Below, piece by piece: positions 26,139 through 30,181 of a DNA stretch of 43,382 nt (position 1 is its first letter; the number at the start of each line of letters is the position of its first letter). Source of the DNA: Lachnospiraceae bacterium. GTDB taxonomy: Bacteria > Bacillota > Clostridia > Lachnospirales > Lachnospiraceae. The DNA is taken from the NCBI GenBank assembly GCA_017440575.1, contig JAFSGY010000080.1:1-43382 (forward strand). The letters are read 5' to 3'. Position numbers and translations under genes: made by a program. The notes beneath the pieces were generated by a model. The model saw nothing but the letters and a program-made list of their open reading frames with translations. It was not told the DNA's origin and made no database searches.

Positions 26139-27917
26139 TTAGATAATATCCTGTAACTGAGCCATTTGCAGCTTGTAATAGGCTCCTTTTTTTGCCATGA
26201 GAGTTTCATGGTTTCCTTCCTCTAAGATACCGCCATTGTCGATAACAAAGATTCGGTCTGCCTTTTGAATCGTGGATAGTCGATGGGCAATGACGAATGA
26301 AGTACGTCCTTTCAATAATGCCTCAATTCCCTCTTGCACGAGCAATTCGGTTTTCGTATCAATGCTGGAGGTTGCTTCGTCCAAAATCAGAATCTTTGGC
26401 ATACTTACCATCGTTCTGGCAAATGCAAGGAGCTGCTTTTGTCCAACGGATAAGCCGCCTCCTCGTTCCTCTAGGACTGTGTCGTATTGCTTCGGAAGCT
26501 TCATGATAAAGTCATGCGCATGAACCGCTTTGGCTGCAGCAATGATTTCTTCCTCTGTAGCATCCAGCTTTCCATAGGCGATATTCTCATGAATCGTTCC
26601 TGTGAAAAGAAAATTATCCTGTGTCATGATTCCCATTTGCTTACGGAGACTTTCAATACTGACAGATTTGATGTCATGTCCATCTATTTTTATAGTTCCT
26701 TCCTGAATGTCATAAAAACGACTGATAAGATTAACAATGGTAGTCTTGCCGGCACCGGTTGGACCTACGAGAGCGATGGTTTCGCCCGGTTTAATATGAA
26801 AGCTGACATTTTGTAATACCTTTGTATTTTCGTCATAGGAGAAGGTAACCTGTTCAAAGTCAACAGAACCTTCAATAGGAGGCATTTCTGTTACATTTTG
26901 AGCATCAGTAATCTCAGCCTTGGTGTCAAGGATTTCAAAGATTCTCTCAGCGCCTGATATATTTGTAATCAGCTGATTGTAGAAATTACTAAGGTTCATA
27001 ATCGGCTGCCAGAACATGGTAATATAGGTTCCGAATGCGATAAGAGTACCAATAGATACTTTTTCCACACCTAAGATGACGATACCAGTATACCAGAGTG
27101 ATACACAGCCAAAGCCCCAGCAGAAGTCTACGACAGAGCCGAAGGCATCGGCATATAAAACTGCATCCATAAAGGAACCACGATGTTCCTTGATAAGCGT
27201 ATGGAAGGTATTTCTTGTTTCCTTTTCGGCATGAAAGCTCTGAATGATACGAATACCGGATAAGTCCTCATGTACAAAGGCATTCAGATTAGATGATTTT
27301 TTCCTATGTATTTGCCATCTTGCATGGGAACGTGACTGAATAAACCAGACTCCTACAATCATAAATGGAATACTGATTAAGGATGCAGCTGCAAGCAGTG
27401 GATTCTTGACAAACATAATGATAACAACAGCACAAAGAGTAATGAAGTCAGGAATCAGAGTCGTTACACTGTTTGACAGGACATCTTTGAGTGAGTTAAT
27501 ATCACCAATAATTCTAGCCAGAATCTTACCAGTTGGTCTACTGTCAAAAAATTTAAAGTCTAAGGTCTGAATATGTGTGTAAAGCTGCTGACGGATATTT
27601 ACCAGTACATTGTTACAGACCTTTGCCATTACATACATTCTGACCTTTACTAAGACGATTAGAATCAGATTAAGGGCAATAGCGATAGCGGCAATGCGGT
27701 ATAGTCCTTGAAAATCTTTTACGGATATGTGTTTATCTATCGCAGCTTCCATAAGAAGTGGATTTACAAGGCTGACACCAACACAATATGCCATAATCAG
27801 CAGCACGCCAAGGATTGGCAGCTTATATTGTAAAAGATAGGAGAATAGTCGTCCGAGTGTCTTGAGCTTGCTGACCTCGACGAGATTCTCATCTTCCTTG
27901 AATGAGTTAATAGGCAC
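26139..27917 (-). CDS. ABC exporter half-transporter, subunit with catalytic Glu and altered signature
   Basis: This 592-aa half-transporter has six membrane helices (about 25-330) and a C-terminal ATPase domain: Walker A GPTGAGKTT, Walker B ILILDEATSSID with catalytic Glu514, and switch His in VIAHRLST. Its signature reads LSVGQ (489-493) and not LSGGQ. Its partner upstream has the opposite pattern, so together they form one competent and one degenerate ATP site, as in heterodimeric multidrug exporters such as BmrCD, LmrCD and TM287/288. The start is GTG 27917 with AGGAGG 7 bases upstream, inside the end of the partner gene. Two bases separate the genes. Substrates are likely drugs, lipids or peptides. 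Confidence 0.92.
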   Translation of the reverse strand: MPINSFKEDENLVEVSKLKTLGRLFSYLLQYKLPILGVLLIMAYCVGVSLVNPLLMEAAIDKHISVKDFQGLYRIAAIAIALNLILIVLVKVRMYVMAKVCNNVLVNIRQQLYTHIQTLDFKFFDSRPTGKILARIIGDINSLKDVLSNSVTTLIPDFITLCAVVIIMFVKNPLLAAASLISIPFMIVGVWFIQSRSHARWQIHRKKSSNLNAFVHEDLSGIRIIQSFHAEKETRNTFHTLIKEHRGSFMDAVLYADAFGSVVDFCWGFGCVSLWYTGIVILGVEKVSIGTLIAFGTYITMFWQPIMNLSNFYNQLITNISGAERIFEILDTKAEITDAQNVTEMPPIEGSVDFEQVTFSYDENTKVLQNVSFHIKPGETIALVGPTGAGKTTIVNLISRFYDIQEGTIKIDGHDIKSVSIESLRKQMGIMTQDNFLFTGTIHENIAYGKLDATEEEIIAAAKAVHAHDFIMKLPKQYDTVLEERGGGLSVGQKQLLAFARTMVSMPKILILDEATSSIDTKTELLVQEGIEALLKGRTSFVIAHRLSTIQKADRIFVIDNGGILEEGNHETLMAKKGAYYKLQMAQLQDII

Positions 27918-27919
27918 GG

Positions 27920-29656
27920 TTATGCCTCCTTTCTGCTGGGTGCTCCGTACTGGGAGCAGTAAGTGGTATAATATAACCCTTCCAGCGCCATGAGCTCTTC
28001 ATGGGTGCCACGTTCGGCAATGGAACCGTTTTCTAATACAATGATTTCATCGGCATGGCGAACGGCACTGATTCGGTGGGCTATGATAAGCTTTGTTGTA
28101 TTTTGTAATTCGTGTAATGTTTTTTGGATTTCATGCTCTGTTTCCATATCAAGGGCAGAGGTGGAGTCATCCATAACCAGAATTGGTGAATTTTTTGCAA
28201 AGGCTCTGGCAATGCTGATTCGCTGCTTCTGACCGCCGGAAAGTCCGACACCTCGTTCGCCGATGATGGTTTCATAGGCATCATCCATCTTTTCGATAAA
28301 GCCACTTGCCTGTGCAGCCTTGGAAGCATTGCGTACCATAGTTGCATCTATGTAATCTTTTTTTCCAAGCTTCACATTCTCGGTAATGGTATCAGAGAAT
28401 AAGAAAACATCCTGCATGACAAGAGAGATGCTTCCTCGTAACTGCTCTAACGAAAGCTCTCTAATGTCGACGTTGTCTAATAAAATCTTTCCATCGGTGG
28501 CATCGTATAGTCTTTGTAATAATTGAATAACAGAAGTTTTTCCGGCTCCGGTTGCGCCCATGATACCAATTGTTTTACCTGGTTCTACTACAAAGGAAAT
28601 ATCATGCAAAATCTCGTGCATATCTTCCTTATGGAAGGAAACGTGGGAGAATTCGATTTTTCCCTGTACGGTATTGAGAGTAATAGGATTTTCGGGTTCC
28701 AGAATGGCAGGAACTTCGTTGTAAATCTTCTGTATTTTCTTATTAGATGCAATACCTGCGGATAAGTCATTCGACAGCCAGCCAAGCATTTCCATAGGCC
28801 ATACAATATTGTTGGAATATTCAATAAAGGCACCCAGAACACCAAGAGTGATGACATCCTGCATCACAAGTCGTCCCCCAAGTAACAGCATAAGCATTGG
28901 CAGAAGCTTTGTAATAATCTGGAAAAATGGATAGTATTTTACAAAGACCTTGGATTGTTGCATATTTAACTCGTAGTAGCGCTTATTATGGGAAAGGAAC
29001 TTCTTGATTTCAAAACGTTCCCTTGCAAAGGCCTTTACGGTACGGACTCCGGCAAGATTTTCCTCGGCTACGGTATTCAGCTTTGCATTTTCTTCACTGA
29101 TTTCTTCATATATTTCTCCAAGCTTTTTCTCCATTTTTAATGCAATGAAAGCGCAGAGAATCATAGCACAGGTTGGAATGACGGCAAGGGATGCATTCAG
29201 ACTGTACATACAGCAAAGAACGACAGTAGTATGGTAAATAACCTCAATTACCAGCATTCCGACATAGGACATGGTATTCCATACACGGTCAACATCGTCC
29301 TTGACACGAGCCATCAGCTCGCCGGTGTTATTCTTATCAAAAAAGTTACAGCTAAGACTCTGAATATGGTCAAACAGCTCCTTTCTCATTTCAGAAGCAA
29401 TTTTAGAGCCAGCTTTATCGAAGGTATATTCCTTCGTGTATTGAAAAATACATCTGCCGACACCGACGCATAGGATTCCACCGAGCAAATAGGGCAGAAG
29501 TGAGATGTTTCCGCCAAGGATAACATCATCAATAATATGCATCGTCAGCATGGGTGACAGCATATCCAGTGATACGCTGATTAACAGGGATAGAATGGCA
29601 AACGCGTAAGACCATTTATATTCCCAAATATAGGTTGATAGTTTCTTTCTTTTCAT
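27920..29656 (-). CDS. ABC exporter half-transporter, subunit with degenerate catalytic site
   Basis: This 578-aa half-transporter has six membrane helices (about 15-310) and an ATPase domain with Walker A GATGAGKTS, canonical signature LSGGQ (472-476), Walker B ILVMDDSTSALD and switch His in IIAHRIS. The residue after the Walker B aspartate is Asp497 where active sites have Glu, so this subunit's own ATP site hydrolyses poorly; its signature completes the active site of the partner at 26139. This is the classical split of heterodimeric exporters. ATG 29656 is the only reasonable start, but GGAGGG lies 14 bases upstream, unusually far. A leader ORF, a terminator and an inverted-repeat promoter lie upstream at 29764-29994. 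Confidence 0.92.
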   Translation of the reverse strand: MKRKKLSTYIWEYKWSYAFAILSLLISVSLDMLSPMLTMHIIDDVILGGNISLLPYLLGGILCVGVGRCIFQYTKEYTFDKAGSKIASEMRKELFDHIQSLSCNFFDKNNTGELMARVKDDVDRVWNTMSYVGMLVIEVIYHTTVVLCCMYSLNASLAVIPTCAMILCAFIALKMEKKLGEIYEEISEENAKLNTVAEENLAGVRTVKAFARERFEIKKFLSHNKRYYELNMQQSKVFVKYYPFFQIITKLLPMLMLLLGGRLVMQDVITLGVLGAFIEYSNNIVWPMEMLGWLSNDLSAGIASNKKIQKIYNEVPAILEPENPITLNTVQGKIEFSHVSFHKEDMHEILHDISFVVEPGKTIGIMGATGAGKTSVIQLLQRLYDATDGKILLDNVDIRELSLEQLRGSISLVMQDVFLFSDTITENVKLGKKDYIDATMVRNASKAAQASGFIEKMDDAYETIIGERGVGLSGGQKQRISIARAFAKNSPILVMDDSTSALDMETEHEIQKTLHELQNTTKLIIAHRISAVRHADEIIVLENGSIAERGTHEELMALEGLYYTTYCSQYGAPSRKEA

Positions 29657-29720
29657 GATGTGTTAATGTTCCCTCCTCATGTATGTAATGAATACTCTCC
29701 GGGTATTACGAATCAACGCT

Positions 29721-29763: not shown

Positions 29764-29794
29764 AAAAAACCACGATATAAAAACTACCGTGGTT
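29764..29794 (-). terminator. Leader terminator (attenuator) ahead of the ABC exporter genes
   Basis: On the minus strand AACCACGGTA pairs with TATCGTGGTT (10 pairs including one G-T), with a 7-base loop, and ends in TTTTTT. It lies between the 27-codon leader ORF and the exporter genes, 110 bases before the first of them. There is no other gene to terminate, so conditional read-through is the natural explanation. Confidence 0.8.
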
Positions 29795-29842
29795 CAGAAT
29801 CAAAATATGTATTCTAATATATGACATTCATGTTTGGTGATA

Positions 29843-29926
29843 TTATGAATGACAACACCCAGAGGTAATTTTTGTATTTAACTTTGTTAAGTTGTTGTTT
29901 GTGTTATAAACTACATTAATGAACAT
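29843..29926 (-). CDS. 27-residue leader peptide ORF ahead of the ABC exporter
   Basis: This small ORF is too short for routine gene calls. It begins at ATG 29926 with a near-perfect AAGGAGGT box 6 bases upstream and ends TAA at 29843. The peptide begins MFINVVYNTNNNLTK and ends KITSGCCHS; it has no signal peptide or membrane helix. The end of the ORF can form a hairpin with bases just after it (CATTCAT overlapping the stop with ATGAATG). About 50 bases beyond is an intrinsic terminator, then the exporter genes. This is the layout of ribosome-mediated attenuators such as bmrB-bmrCD of Bacillus subtilis, in which ribosome stalling in the leader prevents termination. Alternatives are a secreted or modified peptide exported by the pair. 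Confidence 0.65.
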   Translation of the reverse strand: MFINVVYNTNNNLTKLNTKITSGCCHS

Positions 29927-29953
29927 AATTTTACCTCCTTTTCTTAAAAATTG

Positions 29954-29994
29954 TGTAACTATTCATTATCTTTATAGTTACAAATTTGTGTTCA
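29954..29994 (-). promoter_or_regulatory. Promoter with overlapping inverted repeat (operator candidate) for the leader ORF and exporter
   Basis: On the minus strand TGAACA (29989-29994) and GATAAT (29965-29970) are 18 bases apart, a plausible promoter. A perfect 9-bp inverted repeat, TGTAACTAT (29954-29962) and ATAGTTACA (29974-29982) with an 11-base centre, straddles the -10 box, a position suited to a repressor. One arm extends to GTAACTATTCA, which also occurs at the end of the element at 13885, so it could alternatively be repeat-derived. Confidence 0.5.
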
Positions 29995-30181
29995 GTGACA
30001 TTTATTAACTTACGCCCATAAAATTGATTTGTCAATAAAAAATTAAAAAGATTATGAATTATAAAAAACTTTGCGCCGATTGAATGTGTTTTTTGATATA
30101 TATAGTGAATTGAAAGGTTTTGGTTTGTTGTGTGAACAGAAACAGGCTTGGAAAAATGATACAAAATGACGAATAATCTTA

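Follow-up and report, generated by a model that had tools for sequence, protein, structure and literature searches.

Why should a strong intrinsic terminator stand between a very short open reading frame and two ABC exporter genes, with no other gene for it to end? The question is raised by a locus on the minus strand of a 43,382-nucleotide stretch of DNA from a Lachnospiraceae bacterium (the window). A sequence-only reading had proposed that the short frame and the terminator form a leader that attenuates the two-gene exporter, working much as the BmrB leader of Bacillus subtilis does. Here the locus was compared with its counterparts in other genomes and its RNA was modelled. Transcription attenuation at this exporter is likely. 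Our preferred reading, which we hold at a probability of roughly 0.7, is a trp-type ribosome-mediated attenuator in which the Shine-Dalgarno (SD) sequence of the leader acts as strand 1, and in which the exporter would be turned on by a ribosome that stalls early in the leader.

The leader, the terminator and the exporter genes

On the minus strand, AAAGGAGGTAAAATT lies immediately 5′ of a leader open reading frame (ORF) of 27 codons plus a stop (29843..29926, with the ATG at 29926 and the stop ending at 29843), whose peptide is MFINVVYNTNNNLTKLNTKITSGCCHS. The leader SD is GGAGGTAA (29931..29938), which sits in the context AAAGGAGG; the SD stretch can also be given as AAAGGAGGTAA. Near the end of the ORF lies a complement of the SD (aSD), AAAAATTACCTCT (29861..29873), and folds predicted for the window place a hairpin (CATTCAT..ATGAATG, 29825..29851) across the stop codon, between the aSD and the terminator. 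The 5′ arm and loop of the terminator occupy 29779..29795, and its 3′ arm (TCGTGGTTT, 29775-29767) runs into a T-run (29769-29764), the two together spanning 29764..29775. The stem (29795-29767) has 11 pairs and a predicted stability of -13.3 kcal/mol. Shuffled sequence gives 0.5 +/- 0.7 terminator-like sites per 1.1 kb and the window has one; a single site of this kind is by itself unremarkable, and this one is lifted above chance because it is conserved among orthologous loci.

Beyond the terminator follow the GGAGG-type SD region of the first exporter gene (GAGGAGGGAAC, 29668..29678) and the two exporter halves, ABC1 (27920..29656, 578 aa) and ABC2 (26139..27917, 592 aa), all on the minus strand. 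A domain search identified both as ABC_membrane plus ABC_tran proteins (PF00664 and PF00005). ABC1 carries the Walker B sequence ILVMDDST, with Asp-Asp for Asp-Glu, while ABC2 combines the canonical ILILDEAT with the altered signature LSVGQ. Aspartate for glutamate after Walker B in one half, together with an altered signature in the other, is the usual pattern of a heterodimer with one degenerate site, and by its motifs the ABC1/ABC2 pair has one such site. Sav1866, TM287/288, BmrC/YheI and BmrD/YheH are among the best bacterial matches of the two proteins in the PDB; eukaryotic P-glycoproteins score higher. A PADLOC scan returned matches to the ATPase domains and nothing else. The minus-strand ORF with its strong SD, the terminator and the two exporter genes had all been described in the sequence-only reading, and each was confirmed. 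Its remark that the terminator has no other gene to end also held: the sole near gene on the other side, gpmI (30287, plus strand), runs away from the terminator.

A possible promoter element for the leader is the perfect -35-like hexamer TTGACA at 30030..30035 (minus strand), found by scan without a good -10 at the right spacing; the best promoter-like site upstream of the window leader scored 9/12. Across the orthologous loci described below, a site of at least 10/12 was present within 150 nt upstream in 62 of 84 leaders, compared to 5.5% of shuffled upstream stretches. No transcript start is known at position 29994, the upper end of the interval marked earlier. A 27-nt palindrome, GTAACTATAAAGATAATGAATAGTTAC (29955-29981), separates the -35-like site from the leader SD; it is a diverged copy of a dispersed repeat found at 13 places in the same genome (G000, L007-L019), with 0 places for a reversed control pattern. 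At loci L004 and L006 the palindrome ends a longer repeated stretch that starts with GTAACTGTTCAGTA or a close variant.

Conservation of the leader and of two exclusive pairings

Exporter orthologues were defined by a match at E<=1e-150, which was present in 39 of 200 genomes of the family; 30 of these contributed loci, and 80 further exporter loci from named genomes, almost all Lachnospiraceae by title, brought the total to 110. Removal of two cut loci (L159 and L162) left 108. A fixed rule, which asks for a short ORF preceded by an SD and carrying an SD-complement close to its end, was passed by 88 of the 108, and three of these were removed by eye as coding-like or in the wrong register (L119, L158, L085), which left 85 accepted leaders. 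In 83 of the 85 a terminator lies between the leader and the exporter, at a median distance of 41 nt after the leader stop codon. A comparative search had been suggested by the sequence-only reading, and the conservation of short ORF (85/108) and terminator (83/85) upstream of orthologous exporters supports the BmrB-like attenuator that it had proposed.

Twenty loci failed the rule, six of them with less than 400 nt upstream. In L067, L117 and L163 a leader is visible by eye, and in L058, L122 and L138 a leader is present with its aSD farther from the stop. Inspection of L060 and L103 by eye showed no leader within 420 nt; the remaining failures are L070, L073, L104, L136, L145 and L152. Among the GGAGGCAG group, a second terminator-like hairpin often lies between the first terminator and ABC1 (L078, L079, L081, L153-L156 and others).

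Searches with the window leader itself returned little. Apart from the window, a DNA search of the 200 family genomes found a single short match, in coding-like sequence, and a search of the same genomes with the 27-aa peptide gave 40 weak matches, one of them real (L048), whose leader has little in common with that of the window except the SD, TTACCTCTGG and the terminator. The first exact pattern, run on 397 genomes, matched the window, two places in genome G161 and one in G083, the last taken for chance.

Comparison of these sequences establishes four strands and two pairings between them, alongside the conserved ORF and terminator. Strand 1 is the leader SD, strand 2 the aSD near the leader end, strand 3 the 5′ arm of the terminator and strand 4 its 3′ arm. 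In the window, the SD (29938-29931) faces TTACCTCT (29868-29861) in the anti-antiterminator (1:2), of which it forms the 5′ strand, and AAAAATTACC (29873-29864) faces GGTAGTTTTT (29788-29779) in the antiterminator (2:3). The sequence-only reading had reported no convincing antiterminator; one is present, together with its competitor, and both are backed by comparison. The mutually exclusive pairings 1:2, 2:3 and 3:4 are present by sequence and by comparison of cognate with permuted strands, and their formation is predicted by modelling.

The commonest SD/aSD pair across the leaders is that of the window SD motif with TTACCTC, and a second group of leaders has GAGGCAG with CTGCCTC. Other pairs are CGAGGTAA/TTACCTCG, GAGGTAAC/GTTACCTC and GGGGTAA/TTACCCC, and the changes between the pairing strands are compensatory (GGTAA/TTACC, GGCAG/CTGCC). 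When 67 leader ORFs were picked by their SD alone, all 67 could form at least 6 contiguous pairs with their own SD, G-U pairs included, and 60 at least 7. The helix was individually rare in 33 of the 67, with no more than 25 of 500 codon shuffles as good (10/500 for the window), and was matched in more than 5% of shuffles for the other 34. The accepted leaders had been selected in part for 1:2 pairing, and the covariation and permutation results for 1:2 that follow are conditional on that selection. Among 53 leaders at most 72% alike, a limit that reduces relatedness and does not remove it, the helix score was 19.05 for cognate strands and 15.90 for permuted ones (z 9.3, 0/2000 permutations). 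A 53-row alignment had 89.1% of cells paired, compared to 40-54% with the partner slid; the covariation score (0.184 vs 0.128 shuffled) and the two-sided changes exceeded all 500 shuffles, and further pair types showed no excess (11 vs 11.5). In 54 less related leaders, SD offsets +4, +6 and +7 covaried beyond all 2000 permutations.

In the 2:3 pairing, strand 2 plus the A-rich bases 5′ of the aSD faces the terminator 5′ arm. Many leaders pair ATTACC..CGG with CCG..GGTAAT, and the second group pairs TTCAGTCTGC with GCAGTCTGAA, with one mismatch. The duplex had a cognate mean of -10.96 kcal/mol compared to -7.80 kcal/mol when permuted (53 leaders, z -9.6, 0/2000 permutations); taken leader by leader, no more than 30 of the 53 had a duplex better than 95% of the shuffles of strand 2.

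The rule itself ensures that all 85 leaders have the leader frame open as far as the aSD; the two alternative frames are open over that stretch in 9 and 8 leaders. Beyond the aSD, the stop in frame follows at a median of 16 nt (IQR 16-22), compared to 50 and 39 nt in the other frames. The leaders combine a strong SD, an open frame and a narrow aSD-to-stop distance, and the ORF is probably translated.

Modelled states of the proposed switch and competing explanations

These results suggest a model in which the position of the ribosome decides between the two pairings. With 1:2 formed, strand 3 would be left for strand 4 and transcription would end. A ribosome stopped in the stretch from the start codon to strand 2 would keep strand 1 off strand 2, and the freed strand 2 would take strand 3 before strand 4 exists, such that polymerase would continue into the exporter genes. 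With no ribosome, 1:2 could form and transcription would end; a ribosome that has come to the stop codon, which typically lies 16-22 nt past strand 2, would leave strand 2 just behind it, where 1:2 could again form and lead to termination. The switch would report ribosomes that begin and then slow. With the SD as the anti-antiterminator strand, it should answer to such ribosomes and not to any single peptide, drug or amino acid; when nothing is translated it should stay off. Judging from this design and from BmrCD and VmlR, the signal would most likely be ribosome-targeting drugs; the stalling, the read-through and what is exported we infer.

The folding states were predicted for a transcript that runs from the SD as far as the terminator loop, the point at which strand 4 is about to be made, and the ribosome was represented by a stretch kept unpaired. 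Free RNA was predicted to form 1:2 in 45 of 53 leaders and 2:3 in 8. With a ribosome at the start codon, 2:3 was predicted in 37, and 16 leaders still lacked it; with a ribosome at the stop codon, 2:3 was predicted in 7 and 1:2 in 29. A ribosome placed mid-ORF gave 2:3 in 12/53 and 1:2 in 40/53 when represented as an unpaired stretch only, which lets the helix close round the ribosome, an unlikely event. When the full transcript was modelled at equilibrium, the terminator won on average in each state, with a 2:3 mean of no more than 0.3 pair (L068 being an exception). Since the finished terminator wins at equilibrium, read-through would have to be kinetic. The window is among the exceptions to the general pattern: without a ribosome, 2:3 is predicted at the decision point (12.1 pairs, vs 0.2 for 1:2), and free-RNA folding therefore does not explain its off-state.

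The sequence-only reading had placed the stall near the Gly-Cys-Cys-His-Ser end of the peptide. In a peptide-specific sensor of the erm, mef or bmrB kind, a nascent-peptide motif near the leader end would stall a drug-bound ribosome. A translated leader would fit such a sensor, and a pN/pS of 0.66 for codons 2-19 in 12 close leaders, a mild constraint, makes some peptide constraint possible. The closest-looking ends, those of the window, L086 and L066, have Gly-X-Cys-His in common. However, only 3 of the 85 leaders end in it, and the MRLR stall motif described for macrolide leaders in PMC4335068 occurs in 0 of 88. The peptides vary widely, and the residues that they do share, (K/E)(I/V)TS or VCL, are the coding of TTACCTC or CTGCCTC; the aSD encodes them, so RNA pairing explains the likeness. 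Moreover, a ribosome at the leader end is predicted to favour termination (2:3 in 7/53 at the stop vs 37/53 at the start), such that a stall at Gly-Cys-Cys-His is not supported, and we consider a peptide-specific sensor unlikely. The peptide matches no leader known to us, in agreement with the sequence-only reading, which had not recognised it as related to any known leader; it has 27 codons, compared to 53 in BmrB.

The trp-leader architecture would equally suit an attenuator in which hungry leader codons sense the shortage of one amino acid, and Asn-Asn does precede strand 2 in 18 of 54 leaders, 50 of which contain Asn somewhere. Yet no doubled residue is found in more than a third of the leaders, an A-rich sequence is expected to contain Asn, Ile, Lys and Thr codons, and the regulated gene is an exporter rather than a biosynthetic one, which together make this explanation very improbable. 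We give still less credence to attenuation of translation, in which strand 2 would mask the exporter's own SD and the terminator would be a mere safety stop. The GGAGG-type SD of ABC1 (29678-29668) could take strand 2, and a 364-nt fold of the window joins strand 2 to sequence downstream of the terminator; but across 54 leaders strand 2 pairs with its own ABC1 SD region no better than with those of others (-7.93 kcal/mol vs -8.16 kcal/mol permuted, with 1681/2000 permutations as good or better), and for want of this cognate advantage the pairing was rejected. Just as hard to credit is an SD:aSD helix that only limits leader translation, through autoregulation or RNA stability, ahead of a constitutive terminator that sets low basal expression. 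It would agree with 1:2 being the best supported pairing and with the full terminator being more stable than 2:3 in the model, but a constitutive terminator would not need a 2:3 pairing, and the observed one is cognate-specific too (z -9.6). The ribosome-mediated attenuator with the SD as strand 1 thus remains our preferred reading.

Spread of the element and comparison with known attenuators

A covariance model (R1) was built on the SD to aSD alone, and matches were judged spurious when they lay at the start of long genes, with no terminator or no suitable leader. In the 200 family genomes (E<=0.01), R1 gave 30 matches. Of these, 21 (10 of them training rows) were at this exporter, another 5 lay in other places and had a leader and a terminator, and 4 were spurious. 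Among 80 more family genomes, 5 of 6 matches were at the exporter, three with leader peptides identical to training rows. Across 196 genomes of the class there were 14 matches, 9 of them spurious and 5 ahead of ABC exporters with a terminator; these five include the window and three other families (f41, f42, f47), and the SD/aSD match is clear in the f41 and f47 leaders and not clear in f42. The exporter leaders of L255 (G580, f41) and L258 (G533, f47) have GGAGGTC/GACCTCC and AGGTCGTG/CACGACCT, respectively, quite unlike the SD/aSD of the window. When 29 loci of the class were collected by protein, the closest six (42-52% identity; f1, f15, f42, f54, f64) had a leader with an aSD, and in five of these the terminator was clear as well. 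Leader plus terminator was found in 0 of the other 23, more distant exporter homologues, where L284 has a chance ORF with a complement. Matches cluster at one exporter group with few elsewhere, which suggests that the element marks one exporter clade and occasionally moves.

The five matches away from orthologues lie ahead of a second ABC pair (G161), a 772-aa ABC exporter (G184:C45, L202), rsgA, which encodes a ribosome biogenesis GTPase (G129:C90, L201, leader near 6879-6800 of the contig, with a matching terminator), a 94-aa ORF without a family match (G122:C59, L196) and, at 703 nt, rqcH (NFACT; G144:C5:256092-256188, L197/L243, with a matching terminator and a 54-aa ORF between); the ABC genes of G161 and G184 were named by eye. 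A leader and terminator also precede an ABC_ATPase (PF09818) gene in G073:C39 (L208). G161 has two near-identical leaders with terminators (L055/L215, G161:C105; L048/L066, G161:C28), of which one precedes the orthologous exporter and the other the different ABC half-transporter pair, and the copy extends past the terminator. As a regular target, rqcH was rejected: 145 genomes had a match, and the 30 best rqcH loci among them included a single one with a leader.

More tentatively, and with the odds somewhat against it, the element may represent an attenuator class in Clostridia that measures translation as such, with the SD as switch strand, a nearly free peptide and a gene turned on by any slowing of a started ribosome. 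This class would be ancestral to one exporter clade and now and then copied to other genes, which would include those of further exporters and of ribosome factors (rsgA, and rqcH at 703 nt). If our preferred reading is right, an exporter conserved in gut Lachnospiraceae would have a defined on-switch that is open to testing, and searches for the same pattern could uncover further genes that bacteria link to translation stress.

No account of this leader element or of this exporter's regulation was found in the open-access literature. Rfam 15 (4227 families) gave nothing at gathering threshold on the window leader, and on the loci of 14 relatives one match only, an SRP RNA in L156, away from the leader. 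Sub-threshold matches in the window were judged to be chance (the best, RefA9, had 20 of 49 bits); they did not align the SD with the aSD.

In the trp attenuator of Escherichia coli, strand 1 holds the Trp codons, whereas here it is the leader SD, without a conserved codon run. The likeness lies in the four strands, in the pairings 1:2, 2:3 and 3:4 and in a ribosome whose position would decide between them (PMC4191407). In the erm(K) and mef(E) macrolide attenuators, too, a resistance or efflux gene is preceded by a leader peptide and an intrinsic terminator, but their leaders are short and have the MRLR motif in common (PMC4335068), which the present leaders lack. The ABC-leaders of Naville and Gautheret (2010) likewise precede ABC transporter genes and are predicted to be attenuators that include antiterminators; one stands before a Lactobacillus multidrug exporter operon. 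They are described in PMC2965389 as possible aptamers of undetermined mechanism, and may overlap with the present element.

Closer parallels come from Bacillus subtilis. In the vmlR leader, early stalling on a upstream ORF (uORF) prevents the anti-antiterminator, the antiterminator forms and the gene is read (PMC9226507). That uORF has three codons and lies within stem-loop 1, with its SD single-stranded before stem-loop 1; the product is a soluble ABC-F protein rather than an exporter, and the SD of the gene is additionally masked (PMC9226507). The bmrB leader of bmrCD, where leader translation is required and 50S drugs induce, likewise has a leader ORF, a terminator with a predicted antiterminator and anti-antiterminator, and a heterodimeric ABC exporter downstream (PMC4191407); by the PDB sequence matches noted above, the two-gene exporter of the window is of the BmrCD kind. 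BmrB has 53 codons with the terminator inside the ORF (PMC4191407), whereas the 27-codon ORF of the window ends at 29843, ahead of a terminator that starts at 29795. The description of the anti-antiterminator in PMC4191407 does not place the leader SD in it and leaves the function of that structure unclear; here the SD is strand 1. The present element thus differs from the attenuators of trp, bmrB and vmlR in using the leader SD as strand 1 and in having no stall motif common to its peptides.
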